Positions 1,202 to 31,330 of a DNA stretch of 64,000 bases are shown piece by piece. How positions within the stretch are numbered: position 1 is the stretch's first letter; each line of letters starts with the position of its first letter. Below the pieces are notes generated by a model that saw only the letters and a program-made list of their open reading frames with translations, was not told the origin of the DNA and made no database searches. The stretch is from Verrucomicrobiaceae bacterium. Its GTDB lineage: Bacteria > Verrucomicrobiota > Verrucomicrobiia > Verrucomicrobiales > Verrucomicrobiaceae. The stretch is taken from assembly GCA_019694165.1 (NCBI GenBank), contig JAIBCL010000001.1, positions 682,001-746,000 of the forward strand, in the 5' to 3' direction. The position numbers and the translations under genes are program-made.

Positions 1202-2110
1202 TTAGGGCTTGGCTGGCATCTTCGCTGGCACGTCATCCATCTTCGCACCGCGCACCCACTGACCGACGACGATCTGAAACTCCGGTTCAAAGCTGTGTCC
1301 GCGTCCGCGCATGACGACCTGTGTCCAATCCAGTCCACGCGAGCGAGCGGTGCCGTCCACGGCATCGCTGATGAGATTCAACCGGTCGCGAATGCTGCCC
1401 CACGCGGGCTTGTTGGCGCTCGTGCCCTGCAGCTCTTGATCTCCGCGCAGCATGAGGAAGCGGCAGCGATTCAACGACGGCGCGAAGAGTCCGAACGGCG
1501 TGAGGAACGGCGCGCCGCCATCGACGAAGAAGAACTGACGAAAGTGCGCAAGCGTGAACTCATCCTTGCCCGCGATGAGCAACGCGGTGGCGTGCGCGCC
1601 ATTCGAGAATCCACCCACCGCGCTGCCTTCCGCTACGATGCCGGGCACCTCCTTCATGAGCCTGCTCAACATCGTGCGATAAGCCTGACGCAGCGTAACG
1701 AAATCATCCACACCGAGCGCCATGCCCTTGGCTTCCTCCTTCGGATCATAAACGCGCTGAAACAGCGGAAGCGTAACGGCGATGAAGTTCGTGGTGCCGA
1801 TGATCTTCCGCGCGTTTCCGACCTCCGTGCCTTTTCCGCCGATGCCACCGGCGATGAAGACAAACAACGGCCACTTGCCCTCGGGCGTGTAGTTGTCCGG
1901 CAGTTGGGCGGTGAGCGTGGCGGGCACGTCTTCGTTCTTCGCCTGCGAGTAGAGCGTGGGCGGCAGATCGGGAAACTCGAGTTTGATAATGGCGCTCGGA
2001 CGCAGATCCGCTTCGGCATGCACCGGCATGACGACTCCCAGAACTGTGGCGATGCTGATCAATCGGCAGGGCATGTACATGATAAAGTTCCCGAGCTCAG
2101 GCTCATTCAC
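1202..2110 (-). CDS. Exported alpha/beta-hydrolase-fold protein
   Basis: Probable esterase-like alpha/beta hydrolase of 302 residues. A nucleophile elbow GFSNG sits near residue 169, after a strand/loop region that includes PLFVFIAGGIGG, and a late histidine (RGRGHSFEP) could complete the triad. The N-terminus carries a hydrophobic export segment ending near MPVHAEA. The annotated ATG gives a 4-bp ATGA overlap with the upstream gene at 2107-3138, which supports coupling, although the ATG at residue 13 would give a more ordinary signal peptide. The substrate is unknown; the neighbouring sulfatases and carbohydrate proteins suggest deacylation of a glycan (inference). Confidence 0.7.
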   Translation of the reverse strand: MNEPELGNFIMYMPCRLISIATVLGVVMPVHAEADLRPSAIIKLEFPDLPPTLYSQAKNEDVPATLTAQLPDNYTPEGKWPLFVFIAGGIGGKGTEVGNARKIIGTTNFIAVTLPLFQRVYDPKEEAKGMALGVDDFVTLRQAYRTMLSRLMKEVPGIVAEGSAVGGFSNGAHATALLIAGKDEFTLAHFRQFFFVDGGAPFLTPFGLFAPSLNRCRFLMLRGDQELQGTSANKPAWGSIRDRLNLISDAVDGTARSRGLDWTQVVMRGRGHSFEPEFQIVVGQWVRGAKMDDVPAKMPAKP

Positions 2111-3138
2111 GGAGCGGACACCTCGACGCGCAATGGCGCAATCATCGCCTGTGGACTCGTCACAGCGGTGACGGGTATCGGCTGACCGACGAGGTGAAAA
2201 TAGACGGCGAGTTCTCTTCGCCTCGCCGTGATGTGCATGCGGCCTTCCGACGTGAGCTTCAACCCGATGTCATTCGCTGGTTTGCCGATGCCGAAGGCGG
2301 CAACATGTTCGGCATCGGTGAAATGCCCGCAGCCGTCGAAGCCTTGCGCAAGCGCAAAGACCGAGTCAGCGCCGGTGCGCACTTCCCAGGCCAGGTTGCG
2401 GTGCTGCATGGTAACCGTCTGGCCGTCTTTGCCCAGGTTGCCATACAACCAGCTTCCAGCGCCGAAGTCCCAGAGCAGCGGCAGCTTGGTGAGATCAAAA
2501 TGCGCATCGACGGTGAGTTCGCGCTCGCTCCCTGCTTGTTGGGTGATTTTCACCCACGACTTGGTGTTCACGTACTCGAGCCACACCTGGCCAAGTTTCA
2601 GCGTGACGTTGAATGGGCCGCGCTTCACGATCTCCACCGCGCCCGGCTTGAGCATCGTGCGGATGCCGTCGGGACCGACGAACTCCTTGCCTCCAAAAGC
2701 GACCGAGGCGAGGAGCGGCTTTCCGTCACGGCGGATGCGATGACGAATCGCCGCGGACGCCACGACGATTTCGTCCGCTGTCTCGGTGACGGACAAACCG
2801 GCGCGCAACGGCTGAGCTGGCTTCTTTCCGATCTCCACGCGATAGGTCAGCGTTTCGTGCGGGGCGGGGCTTGGCGAGAAATCCACATCCAGCCCGCGCA
2901 CACTGCCGTCGGGCCATTTCGACATCGCGGTGAACTGCGCGGGCATTTCCTTTCCAGCCGTGTCGGTGAGCCGGATCTCCTCGATGCTTGCCAGCGTCCC
3001 AGACGCACACTCGAGCGATGCCGTGACGGGATACCCAAAGCGGCGCAAACCTGCCGTTTCACTCACGGTGAACCTGATCGACTGCGCCATGGCCGAGGCG
3101 GTGAATGCGAGAGTGGCAAGAAGCAGGCGGAGAATCAT
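2107..3138 (-). CDS. Secreted protein resembling the N-terminal part of YetA/exo-rhamnogalacturonan lyase-type proteins
   Basis: A 343-residue exported protein with a clear signal peptide (LLLATLAFTASAMAQ). The rest is predominantly beta-type: alternating hydrophobic strands, an early RFGYPV segment and a central SWVKITQQAGSE stretch. This recalls the N-terminal barrel domain of PcRGLX/YetA-like lyases, but those are usually far longer, so this would be a stand-alone or truncated version. No catalytic motif is recognised. It lies directly upstream of the alpha/beta hydrolase with a 4-bp overlap, so the two probably form a translational unit. The family assignment is tentative. Confidence 0.5.
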   Translation of the reverse strand: MILRLLLATLAFTASAMAQSIRFTVSETAGLRRFGYPVTASLECASGTLASIEEIRLTDTAGKEMPAQFTAMSKWPDGSVRGLDVDFSPSPAPHETLTYRVEIGKKPAQPLRAGLSVTETADEIVVASAAIRHRIRRDGKPLLASVAFGGKEFVGPDGIRTMLKPGAVEIVKRGPFNVTLKLGQVWLEYVNTKSWVKITQQAGSERELTVDAHFDLTKLPLLWDFGAGSWLYGNLGKDGQTVTMQHRNLAWEVRTGADSVFALAQGFDGCGHFTDAEHVAAFGIGKPANDIGLKLTSEGRMHITARRRELAVYFHLVGQPIPVTAVTSPQAMIAPLRVEVSAP

Positions 3139-3241
3139 CGAAAGACGGAAAATGCTGACAGAAAAATGGGAGCGTCAAATCAGAGACATCTGGATTTCTT
3201 CTCCCATCTGCCGTCAGCGAATAGTTCTTCGGGCAAAGACT

Positions 3242-3571
3242 TCATGATGCAAAAGCGTTGCCAGACTCGTTCGGCTCCTTGCTCAGCTCTCCGGTCGGAT
3301 CACCAGCGACGCATTCGAAAGCGTTGCCATCTCCCATGCCTGCGCACTCGTTCTCCCTCACGATGTTCCGCGACCGCAGCGGATACCCTTTTCGCAACTG
3401 CTCTTCTGACCGCGATCCGATCTTCTCGGTGCGCGGCGTCTGGATGTCCGTGCGGCCGAGACCGCTCATCTGTGCCCCTTGATCCTCGGTGAGAATGAAG
3501 AGGATGTTTGGCTGTGCGGCGGAAAGCGAAAAGCCGAGGGCGAGAAGAAAAACGAGCAGCAGGCGCATCAT
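3242..3571 (-). pseudogene. Chimeric relic: sulfatase N-terminus joined to a PL6-type lyase C-terminus
   Basis: A 109-codon open frame whose two halves match two unrelated families in this same window. Residues 1-47 are a signal peptide plus the first sulfatase strand (NILFILTEDQG, then GLGRTDIQTP), closely matching the N-terminus of the sulfatase at 29311-30738. From about residue 60 (RKGYPL, SRNIV, GMGDGNAFE, AGDPTGEL) it matches the last 50 residues of the PL6-like protein at 17058-20030 (RKDYPL, PRNIV, GMGEGSVFD, AADPAGEM). No sulfatase active site or lyase core remains. The simplest reading is a deletion that fused two neighbouring genes in frame. It overlaps the upstream gene at 3568-5373 by 4 bp and may still be translated. 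Confidence 0.8.
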
Positions 3572-5373
3572 GGAGTGAGCTTCAGCACAACGGCTCCGCC
3601 GGGCCGGGCTTGCACGGCGATGGCGCGGGTGCTGTCCATTTTGCCACGGTCTTTGGCGGTGAGCACATCGGAGACGCGGTAGATCGCGGCGGATTTCAGC
3701 GTGAGTTTGGCTCCGGCGGGGTTTTGGAGGTCTTCGTTGATGATCAGCGCAAAGATCGTGCCATCGGCTTTCTTGCGTGCGCGCAGATGCAGTCGCTTGC
3801 TGGGCTCGGCAAAGGCGAGGCCCACATCCCCCGGCTTCACGATCTCAGTCTCGGTGATGAACTCGGCCATCTTCTGCGAGTCAGCAGCGATCTCGGTCAC
3901 GGCTTCGTAGCGACCATCGGCGAGCGGTTTGAAATCCCAGCCGAGCAGGCCGCGCATGGACATGTGGGTGACGTTGTAGCTGACCTCGACGAAGTAGCCA
4001 TGCACGCCGCCAGCGAGCGCCCACCAGAACTGATTCCGCACCTGCTCCTTCGATGGCACCGTCGCGCCAACGAAGGGCACATGCGCCTGGATGAGCACCT
4101 CGGTTTTGTTTTCGAAAGGACGCCACGCGAGCATCTTCGTCTCCCAGCGCATGAGGTCGGGCTTGTTGCTCCAGCCGCCGATGGGCGCGTAGTCGGTGCC
4201 GATGGTGGTGATGCCCCACGACTTCAGATCACGCATGAGCTGCACCTTGTCAGGTGGGGCGTCGATGGCGTTATGACCAATCACGACCTCGACTTCCGTC
4301 GGCTTCCCGAGCGAGTTGATCCAGCGCACCTGCTGCTCGAGGTCTTTGTATTGCTCCGGCGAGTCCTTCGTGCCGAGCTGGTTGTAGAGATGAAACGCGA
4401 GCAGCCCCGGATGATCCTTCGTGGCGAGGATGACGGTTTTGTGATTCTCCGTGAGCGGCGCGGACTTGTGCGCCTCCTCTTCATTGCCGACATAGAGGCA
4501 AGTGTGGATGCCTTCCTGCCACGCGATGTCGAGCAGACTAACGAATCGCTGCGCGGCATCCGGCAAATCCACGAGCCCGCCGCTTTGCACGACGATGGTG
4601 TTCATGCCGGTGGGTTTCAAAGCGCGCACCATGCGCTGATACGAGGGCAGGTCCGGCATCGGCGAACCCCACACGCGCACGGCGAAGGGCACACGCGGCT
4701 TGGGCGGCGGAGGATGGCGCGTGACGATTCGGTCCCATCCGTTCACTGGCGGAGCGGCTTTTGCTTCGAAGGGAATCCAATAGCAACCCGGCGGCACCTT
4801 CGCCGGCCAGTTCTTGAGATCGTTCACGCCTTCCTTGTTCGGATGGATAGCATGACAAAGCACCGCACCCGCTGAATACGCGCCCTTCATGTCAGCACCG
4901 AGCGCGAGGATCACGCGCTTCGATTTGTCGGTCGGATGATCCGCCGTCTTGATGCGATAGCCGCCAGGCGTGATGCCATCCAGGAAGCCGCTGCCTGCGA
5001 GCTTCGTGGCGAAGGCATTGTTCTGCATCGTGCCGAGGCAGAGCACGTGATGCTTCAAATCATCGTCGCTCACCTTCGATGATGTCGTCACGCGCACCTG
5101 CTTCACCTTGTCGATCACGAAGCGTTTGGCCCAGTCGAGCGCCTTGCTGTCGTAGTCACCGCCAAGACCATCGGGCATCACGATGGTGAGATCGGAGCCG
5201 TTGTTCGTGAAGTCGATGAGCGGCTCGCCTTGCATCAACTCCGGCACTTGCGGCGTGACCGAATCTGGAAACGCAATCGGTGCCGCGCGCCAGAGAATCC
5301 ACTCGTCGGGATCAGCTTTGGAGCCTGCGTGAGCGGAGGAGGCGAGGATGATGAATGCGAGGATGTGTTTCAA
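3568..5373 (-). CDS. Exported glycoside-hydrolase-like protein (TIM-barrel type, family not assigned)
   Basis: A 601-residue secreted protein with a short signal peptide (FIILASSAHA). The N-terminal 180 residues look like the alpha/beta accessory domain found before barrels in hexosaminidases and alpha-glucuronidases (LCLGTMQNNA, ITPGGYRI). From about 225 a barrel-like domain follows (PFAVRVWGSPMP, TGMNTIVVQSGG, HPGLLAFHLYNQ, VEVVIGHN, GTDYAPIGGWSN), then a C-terminal beta domain (HLRARKKADGTIFALIIN). Acidic residues in the barrel are plausible catalysts but none can be assigned. It sits 24 bp downstream of the GH32-like gene in the same minus-strand run, consistent with glycan breakdown. Confidence 0.6.
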   Translation of the reverse strand: MKHILAFIILASSAHAGSKADPDEWILWRAAPIAFPDSVTPQVPELMQGEPLIDFTNNGSDLTIVMPDGLGGDYDSKALDWAKRFVIDKVKQVRVTTSSKVSDDDLKHHVLCLGTMQNNAFATKLAGSGFLDGITPGGYRIKTADHPTDKSKRVILALGADMKGAYSAGAVLCHAIHPNKEGVNDLKNWPAKVPPGCYWIPFEAKAAPPVNGWDRIVTRHPPPPKPRVPFAVRVWGSPMPDLPSYQRMVRALKPTGMNTIVVQSGGLVDLPDAAQRFVSLLDIAWQEGIHTCLYVGNEEEAHKSAPLTENHKTVILATKDHPGLLAFHLYNQLGTKDSPEQYKDLEQQVRWINSLGKPTEVEVVIGHNAIDAPPDKVQLMRDLKSWGITTIGTDYAPIGGWSNKPDLMRWETKMLAWRPFENKTEVLIQAHVPFVGATVPSKEQVRNQFWWALAGGVHGYFVEVSYNVTHMSMRGLLGWDFKPLADGRYEAVTEIAADSQKMAEFITETEIVKPGDVGLAFAEPSKRLHLRARKKADGTIFALIINEDLQNPAGAKLTLKSAAIYRVSDVLTAKDRGKMDSTRAIAVQARPGGAVVLKLTP

Positions 5374-16160: not shown

Positions 16161-17027
16161 CTACTTGACCCCGCTCATCGGGTGCGCGCTCACCGTATCC
16201 CAGGCGATCTGCTGGAGCTGTGTGTTGAGTTTCGCCCTGTCATCATCGCTCATGTCTTTGAGCGTGCCAAAGGCCAGCGGCACGGGAAGGCCGACGGGAC
16301 TCTTGCGGTAGATCACCGCATAGTGGCAGTAGCTGGAGAGAAATTGGAGCGGCAGCAACGCATGGCCCCAGTTGTCGCGGAATATCTCGCTCTGCTGCTT
16401 CAGACCGGGCGCTTCGCCTTTCACGATCTTCTCACGCAGCGTCACTGCCGCCATGCCGACGGGCACAATCAGCACCGCGTCCTTGCCGAGGCGCTGGTTG
16501 ATGCCTTTGACGTAATCTTCGATGTCCTGCGCATAGCGCATCGTCGCATCACGTAGCTTGGCGAGATCCGTGGCGTTGTGATCGACCTTCTTCTTCGTCT
16601 GAAGCGGATAGACCGGCTCATACTCGTCATTCGGCATCCAATACTCCTGCACCGTGATGCGCATCGCCGGATTATGCTCGATGCCGAGCTTCACGAACTT
16701 CTCGATTGCCTCGTCCGGCAGCCAGATCGGCGAAAGCGTAAGCACATCGGCTCCTCCAGCCTTCAGCACCTGCTTCACCGTGCTCTTCTCCTCCGGCACA
16801 TCCCAATGCTTCTGCACCGTCGAGCCACCGATGCTCGAAAGCCCAACCGACTGATGTTTCAGGCCCGCCGCAACCGCGATCTGCTCCACCTGACGATAGG
16901 TGAATACATGAAAGCTGTGCCCGCAAGTTGCCACGCGCTGGCCGGTGGTGATGGGGGGCTGCGGATCAGCCGCCCAGGCGATGCATGAGGCAAAAACGAG
17001 TGTCGCAAGGAGATCAAGAACTCTCAT
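16161..17027 (-). CDS. Exported SGNH/GDSL-hydrolase-like protein
   Basis: A 288-residue secreted protein. I place the start at the ATG at 17027 because it follows an AGGGGG ribosome site and begins a good signal peptide (VLDLLATLVFASCIAWAA); an upstream ATG at 17057 adds ten residues. The N-terminal GQRVATCGHSFHVF resembles block I of SGNH hydrolases with serine in GHS, and GADVLTLSPIWLPDEA may correspond to the later block. PVGMAAVTLREKI and a terminal WDTVSAHP are also seen. Probably an esterase acting on decorated glycans, given the neighbours; the assignment is moderate. Confidence 0.55.
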   Translation of the reverse strand: MRVLDLLATLVFASCIAWAADPQPPITTGQRVATCGHSFHVFTYRQVEQIAVAAGLKHQSVGLSSIGGSTVQKHWDVPEEKSTVKQVLKAGGADVLTLSPIWLPDEAIEKFVKLGIEHNPAMRITVQEYWMPNDEYEPVYPLQTKKKVDHNATDLAKLRDATMRYAQDIEDYVKGINQRLGKDAVLIVPVGMAAVTLREKIVKGEAPGLKQQSEIFRDNWGHALLPLQFLSSYCHYAVIYRKSPVGLPVPLAFGTLKDMSDDDRAKLNTQLQQIAWDTVSAHPMSGVK

Positions 17028-17057
17028 GGCCCCCTGAAACGTCAGACGCGCACTCAA

Positions 17058-20030
17058 TCACTCATCGCATCCCGCCGGCCATGGCCGGAACACATTCCGT
17101 TCTTCACGCAGCTCCTTCCGCATCTCTCCGGCTGGATCAGCGGCGATGAAGTCGAAGACGCTGCCTTCTCCCATGCCGGTAAAGTTGTTGTCGCGCACGA
17201 CGATGTTTCGCGGCAGCAACGGATAGTCTTTCCGCGCGTAGATGCCGGCGGCGATGCGTTTGTCGCAGTGGTCGAAGCGATTTCGTGTGATGAGGATGTC
17301 GCGGGCGCGGCCATAGCCGCCGAGCTGGTCGGTCTCGCCGAAGATTTCGAGATCGCTGGCCATCAGTGAGACGGGCCAGTTGTAGTAGTCTTTGGGCTTT
17401 CGGAGATTGCGGAAGGTGTTGCCGATCAGGACATGACCGTCGCCTTGCAAACGCACGCCGCCGGTGTTTTCGCGGCCCTGGCCGTCGAAGACATTGTCCT
17501 GCACGAGCACGCGGCGGGAGGTGCGCAGACAAAGGACGCCCTGGCTGGCGATAAAGCGATTCCCACGCACGACGACATCGGATGCCTTGAGCGTGATGAG
17601 TTCATTCTCGCCATCGCAGCGCTCAAACGTGTTTCCTTGGATGAGCGATCCCGTGGGAGCCGCCCGCACGCCGCTCCAGCCGATTTGCAGGACTTCGTAG
17701 CCGTTTTGATCATCGAGATGCGGGCGGTCGATGAAGTGGTTGTTCAGCACATGGAGCTGCTGCGGGCCGTCGAGCGGCAATTCAGCGGCTCCGAGCATCT
17801 GGCCGATGTTTTGCAGCCCGCGAAAGGTGCAGTCCGCCACCGTGTTGCCGCGTCCGCGCAGGCTCATGAGCCACAGATGCAGCTTGGTGCGCTCTTCAGG
17901 ATTCGTGGAGCCGCAGTTCTCGAAGCGCAGTTGGTGGAACAGACAGTGATTGGCCGGTTTGGCCTCGCCATTGCCGACGGCGAAGATGACGGTGCTGTTC
18001 TTCGTCGAATGAACCCCTCGAAACGCGAGGTCATGCACGATGAGATGCTTGCCGTGGAAGCGCACCGTCGATTCGCCGGTGAAAACGACGCTCCCCGGCT
18101 TCTCCGGTCGGATCAAGATCGGCGCGTCCATCGTGCCGTAGCCTTCGAGTGTGAATCGCGCATCCTTCCACTCGCCGCTCGCGAGCACGAGCTGATCGCC
18201 AGGAGCCAGTTTGCCCGATAAACGGCCCACTTCCGCCGCGGAGCGCGCCAGATACGTTTTTCCGCGAAAGAGGCTGCTTTGCAAAAAGTCACCCGCTTCG
18301 AGCTTCGCGAGCCTCGGGTCGATGGGACGCTGCAAATCGAGTCGCAGCCGGTTTTTCATGCCGGCGTCCGCGATGACCTGGGCGAGTTCATCGACGGGTT
18401 TGCTGGCGAGCAGCCGAAACGTGCGCGTCACCGGCTTCGCGGTCTGCACGCGCGGTTCGATGCTGCGGCCCCATTGCCAGGCGGTGACGGTGATCTCGAC
18501 GGGAAATCGCGTGCGTGGAGGCACGGGCGTGAAGTGCAGCGCATCGCCCTCCACTTTCGCAGGACCGGCGACGACGTAAAAGCGCACTTTCATGCCTGAA
18601 CCGGCCCTAGCGATGAGCGGCACGCTTTGGATGCCGGCGATTTGATCGGCGACGGGCTCAAAATCGATTTCTTGTGCCGCACCTTCGCTGTTCGGCACGA
18701 GTTCCAGATAGCCCGGCTGCACCACATCGCGTATCTCAGCCGTGCCGCGATGCCGCAGGGTCACGCAGACCGGTCCCTGCGGCCAGGTGCGATCCAGCGC
18801 GATGCGAAAGCGTCCGCTCTCCACGGGCGCCACCGGGCCGGCGAGCCATTCCACGACCGGCGTGCCGGGTGCCATCGCCAAAGGCTCGCCCACGCCGACA
18901 AAACCCGCCGGAATCTCAGGCAGCAACCCACCACGCACCTCAAACGTGATGCCGTCCTCGCCGGTGACGAGCGGCACGGGTTTCGTGATGCCTTGATGGA
19001 GCATCGGCACGGGTATTCCCGCAACGTCGAGGAAGGTGGGAAGCTGGCTGGAGGCCTTCCAGTTGATCGCCGCCATGCGCTGCGCATCACGCGCCAGCGC
19101 CTCATCGAGATACCAGGGCTTGGTATGTGTTTTGGTCTCGGTGGCGGCGGCATCCGGCAGTGGCAGACCTGCTTCGACACCTGCGTCGATGGTGACAGCG
19201 CGCAGAGGTGCCTCCGGCTCCGCAGGCAGGCGCGCGTTCGTCACGGCAGTGATGTAACCGGCAAAGTGCCGCGCCATCGCCTCCGTGCAGTCAAAGTGGC
19301 CGCTGCCGCCTTCCACGAGCAGGCTCATCGGCCATGTGGGATGCTTCTGGCGCTCGCGCAGCAGCGTGTCGTAGAAAGCGAGGTCCTGCCACTTCGTGCG
19401 GATGTCCTTCTCGTTTTGAAACCACTCCTGCGCCGTGCCCACCGCGACGAGCAGCGGTGTCTCGCGATTTCTGCACAGCGAGAGCGACACGGCGTTCTTG
19501 ATGCAGATGCCCGCGATGCAGCGCTGCGGCGCCGCGTTTAAGAGGTGATACACCATGCGCAGGTGCATCGATTCGCCCATCGGCAGCCATGGCACGCTCG
19601 CCACCTCATCGTAGCCGGAGGTTGCCGCGAGCCCGTCGAGCAACTGCTGCAAAAATGCGACGTGCTTCGCCGAATCATCGAGCGTCTTCACACTCATGAA
19701 CCTCGGCGAGCACCACACGATGCCGAGATCGCCCGCCGCACACGCCGCACGAATCGCCGGATGGCCCACGATCCCGTGCTCGGTCACGTTTTCGCCGAGA
19801 ACGAGCAGTCCACGCAGATGCCCGCACGTCTCGGGAATCCAAAGATGCGCCGTCGTTTTCACCTCATCGCCCGGCGCATACTCCAGCGTGCCGTGCTGCA
19901 TGAACTGAAACACCTGATTCTCCGGCGAGCGCGTCTCTGCGAGTGCGGTGACAGCAAGCAGGCAAATGACAATGAGAAGACGAGTGAGGCGCAGCATGAA
20001 GGACGACGGCATGAAAGCGTCATCGTTCAA
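17058..20030 (-). CDS. Large exported fusion: esterase-like N-terminus and PL6-type beta-helix lyase C-terminus
   Basis: A 990-residue secreted protein with a signal peptide (LLIVICLLAVTALA). Residues 40-260 resemble an alpha/beta hydrolase: GLLVLGENVTEHGI, LGIVWCSP, a possible nucleophile elbow PMGESMH around S154 and a histidine in EGGSGHFDCTE. A beta-sandwich middle (about 290-570) follows. Residues 590-985 are a right-handed parallel beta-helix of the PL6 alginate lyase/chondroitinase B type: SGEWKDARFTLEGYGTMDAPI, FERCDGENELITLKAS, then SQGVLCLR. In PL6 enzymes the catalytic base lies in a G-K motif; here the equivalent stretch reads CTFRGLQNIGQML, so activity is uncertain. It starts 43 bp downstream of the gene at 20074-20865. 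Confidence 0.8.
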   Translation of the reverse strand: MNDDAFMPSSFMLRLTRLLIVICLLAVTALAETRSPENQVFQFMQHGTLEYAPGDEVKTTAHLWIPETCGHLRGLLVLGENVTEHGIVGHPAIRAACAAGDLGIVWCSPRFMSVKTLDDSAKHVAFLQQLLDGLAATSGYDEVASVPWLPMGESMHLRMVYHLLNAAPQRCIAGICIKNAVSLSLCRNRETPLLVAVGTAQEWFQNEKDIRTKWQDLAFYDTLLRERQKHPTWPMSLLVEGGSGHFDCTEAMARHFAGYITAVTNARLPAEPEAPLRAVTIDAGVEAGLPLPDAAATETKTHTKPWYLDEALARDAQRMAAINWKASSQLPTFLDVAGIPVPMLHQGITKPVPLVTGEDGITFEVRGGLLPEIPAGFVGVGEPLAMAPGTPVVEWLAGPVAPVESGRFRIALDRTWPQGPVCVTLRHRGTAEIRDVVQPGYLELVPNSEGAAQEIDFEPVADQIAGIQSVPLIARAGSGMKVRFYVVAGPAKVEGDALHFTPVPPRTRFPVEITVTAWQWGRSIEPRVQTAKPVTRTFRLLASKPVDELAQVIADAGMKNRLRLDLQRPIDPRLAKLEAGDFLQSSLFRGKTYLARSAAEVGRLSGKLAPGDQLVLASGEWKDARFTLEGYGTMDAPILIRPEKPGSVVFTGESTVRFHGKHLIVHDLAFRGVHSTKNSTVIFAVGNGEAKPANHCLFHQLRFENCGSTNPEERTKLHLWLMSLRGRGNTVADCTFRGLQNIGQMLGAAELPLDGPQQLHVLNNHFIDRPHLDDQNGYEVLQIGWSGVRAAPTGSLIQGNTFERCDGENELITLKASDVVVRGNRFIASQGVLCLRTSRRVLVQDNVFDGQGRENTGGVRLQGDGHVLIGNTFRNLRKPKDYYNWPVSLMASDLEIFGETDQLGGYGRARDILITRNRFDHCDKRIAAGIYARKDYPLLPRNIVVRDNNFTGMGEGSVFDFIAADPAGEMRKELREERNVFRPWPAGCDE

Positions 20031-29310: not shown

Positions 29311-30738
29311 TCAAGGAGCCGGAGGAATGAGCATCGTGCTGTCACCAGTGTCCGCGTGCCACTTCTTGAAAGCGGCCAGGAGGCGTTCGAGATGCGGGTG
29401 CGCGGCGGGATCGTTGGCGAGGTCGTGGAGTTCGCCGGGATCGTTTTGCAGATCGTAGAGTTCGATGAGCGGCGGGTGACCATCGAGCGCGTGCGGGTCC
29501 ATCGTTTGCAACATGCGATAGGCGTCGGGGAAATCGGCCCTGCGGCGCACGAGTTCGCCATAGACGCGATTGATCCACGGTTTCCTGTCGCGCAGGTCGG
29601 CGTTGATCACCTTCGGCTCGTCGAGCTTGCAGCGGAGAATAAGCTGATGCGTGGCATCGAGCACCGAGCGCTCTTCCATGCCGCGCGTTTGATTCAGCGA
29701 GCGCCCCGACACCTCGGCAAAGATGAAGTCGTGGCCCTTCGCGTCGCTTTTGCCTTCGATCAAAGGCTTGAGGCTCCGGCCATGCAGCGGTGCATCGTAG
29801 GCAATGCCGAGCACGTCGAGCAGCGTGGGCAACAAATCGAGTTCGCTGACGAGCGCATCGCTCACAAGCGGCTTCGCGCCGGGCAAACGAACGACGAGCG
29901 GGATGTGCAGACCGAAGTGATACGGCGTCATCTTCCCATGCGGATAGGCCGGGCCGTGATCGCCCATGAAGAGGATGATCGTGTTCGATTCCTGACCCGA
30001 CGCGCGCAACGCATCGAGCATCTCGCCCACGGCTTGATCCGCCTTCTGCACACCGTCGAGGTATTCCGCCCAATCGCGACGAATCACCGGCGTGTCTGGC
30101 AGATGCGGCGGTAACGTGACCTTCGCGGGATCGGCGCTGATCGGCTGCTTCTCGCTGTCCACATACGGCCGATGCGTCGAGGTGATCGTGTTGTGCATCA
30201 GGAACCACGGCTTGCCCGACGCGCGCTTGATCGTGCCATTGAGCGCCTGCTTCGCGGGCACCTTTGGGAAGAAGTCGTGATACGGAAACCGCTCGTTCGG
30301 CGCGACGTGGAGCTTGCCACTCACCGCCGCGTGATAGCCATACTGCACCAGCACCTCGACCAATGTCGGCGCCGTGCTGCGAATGCGCGTGTGCAGGTAT
30401 GGCGGCGAGTTCTTCTCCGCGTCCGTGAGTTTCTCGGCGCGCTTGAGGTAGTTGTTCGTGTTGTTCACGAGCCCGTTCGTGTGGCTGTGCAAACCCGTCA
30501 TGATGCACGCCTTCGATGCCGAGCAGACCGGATATGCGACATAAGCCCGCCGAAACAACGCCCCACTCGCCGCCAGCGCATCCATGTTCGGCGTCCGGAT
30601 GTCCGTGCGACCGAGAGCGCTCATGTGCGCGCCCTGGTCCTCGGTGAGGATGAAGAGGATGTTTGGGCGCGGCGTGGCCGCGAATGACGAAACCAGGATT
30701 CCGAATGACGAAAGGAGGAGGGCGAAGATGAAGCGCAT
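29311..30738 (-). CDS. Secreted sulfatase with variant CSASK nucleophile motif
   Basis: A 475-residue sulfatase-family protein. The start at 30738 gives the signal peptide MRFIFALLLSSFGILVSSFAA. The first metal strand reads NILFILTEDQGAHMS, with E-D in place of the usual D-D. The formylglycine position is C72 in CSASK (72-76) followed by ACIMTG, so both the proline and the arginine of C-x-P-x-R are replaced (A and K). GKLHV and the second metal site FMGDHGPAYPHGK are present. This is the closest relative in the window to the N-terminal half of the chimeric relic at 3242-3571. Activation by the usual generating enzyme is uncertain. Confidence 0.9.
   Translation of the reverse strand: MRFIFALLLSSFGILVSSFAATPRPNILFILTEDQGAHMSALGRTDIRTPNMDALAASGALFRRAYVAYPVCSASKACIMTGLHSHTNGLVNNTNNYLKRAEKLTDAEKNSPPYLHTRIRSTAPTLVEVLVQYGYHAAVSGKLHVAPNERFPYHDFFPKVPAKQALNGTIKRASGKPWFLMHNTITSTHRPYVDSEKQPISADPAKVTLPPHLPDTPVIRRDWAEYLDGVQKADQAVGEMLDALRASGQESNTIILFMGDHGPAYPHGKMTPYHFGLHIPLVVRLPGAKPLVSDALVSELDLLPTLLDVLGIAYDAPLHGRSLKPLIEGKSDAKGHDFIFAEVSGRSLNQTRGMEERSVLDATHQLILRCKLDEPKVINADLRDRKPWINRVYGELVRRRADFPDAYRMLQTMDPHALDGHPPLIELYDLQNDPGELHDLANDPAAHPHLERLLAAFKKWHADTGDSTMLIPPAP
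30682..30712. repeat. GAATGACGAA repeat within a signal-peptide coding region
   Basis: Two copies of GAATGACGAA (30682-30691 and 30703-30712) antisense to the SSFGILVSSF part of the sulfatase signal peptide; same placement and 21-bp period as the pair at 22654-22684. Confidence 0.75.
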
Positions 30739-30772
30739 GGTGAGCAATGGTCGTGCGGATGATGGTTTGAGA

Positions 30773-31330
30773 TCAATCAACGTATTTGGCAAGAAGGCGC
30801 GTAGCGAGCTGATGCCCAGTTTGATCGCTCTTCGACAATGTCTCTATCAATCGCTGGGATGTTGAGTGAGTGCGCAGCCGCTCGTTGAACTGCATGGCTT
30901 CGAGAAGTTGAAGCATTGTGACACCATCGAGGTCACAATCATCGTCCAAGATTGAAATCAAATGCTCCTCCGCGTCAGAGAGAGTCTCTTCGATTCTCTC
31001 GGTCACAGAGAGGCAAGCGGCACAGGCTTTCTCAAGTGGTTTGCCGGACCCCAAAGCTCGAGCAACGACAGGAATCGCAGCTTCACGAGCAGGGCCAGAC
31101 GTGACGAGGTCGGCTTTGAGATGCCACAAAGCGATCACTGCATCGGTTGGCTCGAGTTTGGGCGGGAAGGTCACAGTGATGGAGATGGGGGAACTGTAGA
31201 GCGTTGGTGGCTGAGAATGGACGAGGCCAGGCAGTGACAAGTTGCGGATGATTGCCGAGGCTTTTCTCCAACTGGGTGAATCCAGCGCGCGACACCATTT
31301 GCACGCGTGTTTGTCCCAAACTTCACTCAA
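30773..31330 (-). CDS. Unrecognised helical protein, third gene of a nucleotidyltransferase triad
   Basis: About 185 residues from a TTG at 31330, the only plausible in-frame start that does not run deep into the gene upstream; no ATG serves. The C-terminal two thirds are helical and acidic (AVIALWHLKADLVTSGPA, PLEKACAACLSVTERIEETLSDAEEHLISILDDD, TMLQLLEAMQFNERLRTH). No domain was recognised. It overlaps the end of the nucleotidyltransferase by 8 bp, so it is likely expressed with it. If real, it could be the effector or regulator of the triad. Start and function are uncertain. Confidence 0.5.
   Translation of the reverse strand: MSEVWDKHACKWCRALDSPSWRKASAIIRNLSLPGLVHSQPPTLYSSPISITVTFPPKLEPTDAVIALWHLKADLVTSGPAREAAIPVVARALGSGKPLEKACAACLSVTERIEETLSDAEEHLISILDDDCDLDGVTMLQLLEAMQFNERLRTHSTSQRLIETLSKSDQTGHQLATRLLAKYVD

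Follow-up and report, generated by a model that had tools for sequence, protein, structure and literature searches.

A probable decaying pseudogene joining a sulfatase start to a PL6 lyase tail in a Verrucomicrobiaceae genome

Introduction

Sulfatases of family S1 (PF00884) carry a formylglycine motif (C/S-x-P/A-x-R/K) and a catalytic domain, and lyases of the PL6 or chondroitinase B family (PF14592) have a parallel beta-helix catalytic domain with a Lys/Arg pair. Truncated or fused pseudogenes that arise from deletion are also known in bacteria. The open reading frame described here, referred to as the relic, touches all three. It is found at 3571..3242 on the minus strand of the window, the 64,000-nucleotide stretch of Verrucomicrobiaceae DNA that was analysed. 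The relic begins as a sulfatase and ends as a PL6 lyase, and it lacks the motif and catalytic domain of the former as well as the beta-helix domain and Lys/Arg pair of the latter. It is probably a decaying chimeric pseudogene, which a deletion may have produced by joining a sulfatase start to a PL6 tail.

The relic and its immediate surroundings

The relic (3242–3571, minus strand) is a chimeric ORF of 109 aa, running from ATG to TGA and recognised from its sequence and from the BLASTP matches of its two halves. The first-pass annotation had described a 109-residue ORF with a signal peptide at this position, and both the frame and the signal-peptide-like start are confirmed: the N-terminus is the stretch MMRLLLVFLLALGFSLSAA (residues 1–19, 3515–3571, minus strand), inherited from the sulfatase, as the sulfatases of relatives start alike. 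A Pfam search with the relic returned no match. Of the start/stop overlaps that had been reported, the upstream one stands, with the relic start overlapping the stop of a 601-aa gene (3568–5373, minus strand) by four bases (ATGA, 3571–3568), but on the downstream side a gap of 103 bp separates the relic from the next gene, which encodes 343 aa. The 601-aa protein is secreted and has no Pfam match.

The downstream gap contains a strong hairpin (3154–3218, minus strand; z about -3.5) with the arms GCTGACGGCAGATGGGAG and CTCCCATTTTTCTGTCAGC, recognised by folding and by comparison with the relatives G014 and G019. In these two genomes the outer arms GCTGAC/GTCAGC are kept and the inner stem is not. 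The hairpin may have a terminator-like or regulatory role. It is present as a single copy in the genome, so that a genome-wide repeat was rejected, and a search of Rfam gave chance matches only.

The sulfatase-derived half

Residues 2–63 of the relic match the sulfatase of the window (29311–30792, minus strand) with 48% identity (BLASTP, E 2e-15), and residues 60–107 align with the C-terminal end of the 990-aa PL6 protein of the window (17058–20030, minus strand) at 53% identity (BLASTP, E 8e-14). Both matches are far beyond chance, and the two halves had been recognised correctly as a sulfatase N-terminus and a PL6-lyase C-terminus.

Alignment with intact relatives places the sulfatase-derived part at 3430–3571 (minus strand), up to codon 47 and cut ahead of the formylglycine site, which in the intact relatives is CSASK at residue 66–72, past the sulfatase end of the relic. 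Residues 20–47 align with the N-terminal segment of intact S1 members. At the DNA level, a sulfatase designated H5 is identical to the relic at 26 of 26 bases up to the junction. The window sulfatase, intact and of the same subfamily by Pfam (PF00884) and BLASTP, has the unusual modification site CSASK instead of the usual C-x-P-x-R, a feature common to H5 and the sulfatase of relative G010.

The PL6-derived half

The in-frame lyase part was located by alignment at 3242–3394 (minus strand) and comprises residues 60–109 and the stop codon; the PL6 codon that would follow relic residue 70 is missing. In an intact ortholog of 439 residues the PL6 profile match covers 62–389, and the final 48 relic residues lie essentially beyond that region. 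The intact ortholog of G019 matches the solved PL6 alginate lyases 7dmk and 6qps. The relic retains no catalytic residue of either enzyme; since its sulfatase part does not reach the formylglycine site and its lyase part lies past the PL6 profile region, neither enzyme can work. Among 12 intact PL6 proteins, 12 columns are invariant, and the lyase part is altered at four of these (L to R, P to S, F to C and D to E). Each intact protein, when left out in turn, is altered at zero to two such columns.

The 990-aa protein of the window is an intact PL6-type lyase by Pfam (Chondroitinase B/PL6, PF14592) and BLASTP. In G039 its counterpart is two genes of 545 aa and 475 aa (L031:4417-7509), lying in a single frame with a stop and a further signal peptide between them. 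On either side of the split G039 carries a short similar stretch (VD*LAKVIAD and DDLAKIVAA), of which the window has a single copy (VDELAQVIAD), so that the 990-aa gene would seem to be a genuine in-frame fusion, perhaps made through loss of the intervening signal peptide.

The junction and the reading frame

Identity to the sulfatase stops at about 3430 (GCGCA) and falls to chance level thereafter. A continued sulfatase frame past codon 47, with 'TEKIGSRS' read as a diverged MDALAAS, was considered and is unsupported (p 0.1-0.4), as against p 0.001 for an out-of-frame PL6 alignment. From about 3430 the DNA of the relic aligns with PL6 (CGAGCACTGCGACAAGCGCATCGCCGTC...), one base out of the downstream frame. 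The junction itself is placed at 3430–3432 (minus strand), where the 26/26 identity to H5 ends and PL6 similarity begins, and where GCA is common to the sulfatase (CGCGCAT) and to PL6 (CGAGCAC). These three shared bases would fit an illegitimate recombination with a microhomology of about 3 bp.

Residues 48–59 of the relic are PL6-derived DNA read out of frame. This segment (3395–3429, minus strand), found by frame-shift alignment, is 52% identical to PL6 at a shift of +1 (shuffled mean 36%, p 0.001), and its translation in the other frame, AHREDRIAVRRAVAKR, has EHCDKRIAVGIYARKE as its PL6 counterpart. It ends with a net gain of one base relative to PL6, before 3394 and about 35 nt past the junction, which puts the lyase frame back. 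As PL6 homology before residue 60 is in the other frame, the joint in the DNA does not keep the lyase frame, which the net +1 restores. The relic had been called an in-frame chimera. This holds for the present reading frame, which is open throughout, but not for the joint, where PL6 homology is frame-shifted.

Parentage and synteny

The sulfatase and PL6 genes of the window had been taken as the parental genes. They are paralogs, and the levels of identity rule them out as parents of the relic. Residues 1–55 of the relic are 74% identical to the sulfatase of G010, as against 50% for that of the window; the lyase half is 52% identical to the PL6 of the window and 54-62% to PL6 proteins of relatives (G014, G019, G039, G061, G062, G074), so that the window gene is no closer. 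Matches of residues 60–107 to the C-terminus of PL6/chondroitinase-B-type lyases lie at 53-63% identity. The genome holds no intact source copy of either half.

The syntenic anchor of the locus is the 343-aa gene (2107–3138, minus strand). An ortholog search of 68 family genomes found it in only five others (71-75% identity), making it a rare accessory gene present in 6/68 genomes. For its product, Pfam gave no more than a sub-threshold hit, to the N-terminal domain of PcRGLX-like lyases. In all five relatives (G014, G019, G039, G061 and G062) an intact PL6 gene lies directly before the ortholog on the same strand. The spacer between PL6 and the 343-aa gene in G014 and G019 can be aligned with that of the window, including the outer hairpin arms (GCTGAC..GC and CTGTCAGC). 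Taken together, this arrangement and the alignable spacer identify the tail of the relic as the remnant of the PL6 gene native to the locus; the 3′ half is thus orthologous to that gene by synteny and is not a copy of the window PL6.

An orthologous intact locus was found in the relatives on the PL6 side only, and the search for a sulfatase-side ortholog there was negative. The 601-aa gene failed as an anchor for this side, as searches of 387 genomes across the phylum and of 68 family genomes found no relative of it at E 1e-40. The first-pass annotation had suggested looking for an undeleted sulfatase–lyase tandem in close relatives. None with a relic-type sulfatase was seen at their PL6-bearing loci or at their relic-type sulfatase loci. 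A same-strand sulfatase does lie two genes upstream of PL6 in G061 and G062, but it belongs to another subfamily.

Uniqueness and selection

A second copy of the chimera was absent from 68 family genomes, 38 near relatives and a scan of GTDB contigs, and plasmid records gave no match. The same 109-residue ORF, conserved as an independent family in many genomes, was looked for in relatives, and none carries the chimera; a conserved small-protein family was rejected on the genomes searched. Matches in G014, G019 and G039 to residues 30–107, first taken as the same architecture, lie inside intact PL6 genes. Pairwise dN is about 0.25-0.5 and dS about 0.85-1.6, values that come from one relic sequence and include history before the junction. 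The codon-position counts of the relic lean to third positions, likewise for one sequence with its pre-junction history included. A dN so far below dS would speak against a pseudogene, but it probably reflects mostly the history before the joint.

Origin of the relic

Two truncated parents are joined at one point in the relic, as in a pseudogene formed by fusion or deletion. We infer the following course. In the ancestral cluster, a sulfatase gene in translational coupling with the 601-aa gene would have been followed by a PL6-type lyase gene and then by the 343-aa gene. An illegitimate deletion using a microhomology of about 3 bp would have joined sulfatase codon 47 to lyase codon ~383, out of frame, with a loss of about 2.4 kb if the sulfatase and lyase genes were adjacent or about 3.2 kb if the gene of 249-279 aa found in relatives lay between them. 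A later net gain of one base would have brought the lyase tail back into frame, and one lyase codon would have been lost. Through coupling with the preceding stop, the relic ORF may still be translated and its product exported. The first-pass annotation had read the relic as the trace of a deletion within a lyase/sulfatase pair. A sulfatase/PL6 chimera from which the remainder of each gene has gone is well supported, but the tandem is unseen and rearrangement is an alternative.

No relative has the sulfatase subfamily of the relic beside PL6, which speaks against a pseudogene made by deletion, and it is for want of such a tandem that an inversion or translocation may have placed the sulfatase start beside the PL6 tail instead. 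Shuffling is indeed visible in these clusters (the gene at 16161–17057 follows PL6 in the window and its G074 ortholog lies upstream of PL6), and none of the other genomes searched has the 601-aa gene. Such a rearrangement would alter only the route, the product still being a pseudogene, and it is rather unlikely. A same-strand sulfatase ahead of PL6 is a usual arrangement, as the other-subfamily sulfatases of G061 and G062 illustrate, and one deletion is simpler. A deletion within the gene pair is the simplest account, plausible but unproven. An artefact of assembly is very unlikely. The contig is a draft and possibly metagenome-derived, from an assembly of 66 contigs with 96% completeness, but a k-mer misjoin would need more than the ~3 bp shared at the joint, intact source copies are absent from the genome, and the lyase tail is altered around and after the joint.

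The open, restored frame of the relic could be explained by selection, and the relic had been suggested to be a secreted mini-protein. A domesticated chimera of this kind, its translation coupled to that of the 601-aa gene, would account for the signal-peptide-like start, the ATGA overlap, the frame re-established after an out-of-frame joint and the codon-position pattern, which is not neutral. The loss of invariant PL6 positions, the out-of-frame middle, and the lack of a complete domain, of a Pfam match and of any homolog with the same architecture among the genomes searched argue against it, and the suggestion, having found no positive support, is improbable. Slightly less probable still is expression through coupling with retention of the chimera, once its frame had been restored, as a new secreted small protein; the relic would then be a de novo fusion gene made from two enzymes of a polysaccharide-utilisation cluster. 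The relic is most likely an ordinary genomic scar in which function is absent.

Comparison with known systems

As a pseudogene, the relic records a single event in the reshuffling of lyase/sulfatase clusters in Verrucomicrobiaceae. It is also a checkable example of a scar that gene-finding programs would annotate as a small secreted protein. It changes no understanding of mechanism. Relative to sulfatase family S1, its first 47 residues keep the signal peptide and the start typical of the subfamily (PNILFILTEDQGA...GRTDIQTPR), but it ends before the formylglycine site, lacks >420 residues and is undetected by Pfam. Relative to the PL6/chondroitinase B family, its last 48 residues align with the C-terminus of intact members, whereas the beta-helix core and the catalytic residues are missing. 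Like the truncated and fused bacterial pseudogenes that result from deletion, it consists of two gene ends joined with an indel at the joint and with conserved positions decayed. Unlike these, it has by chance an uninterrupted frame through the joint.
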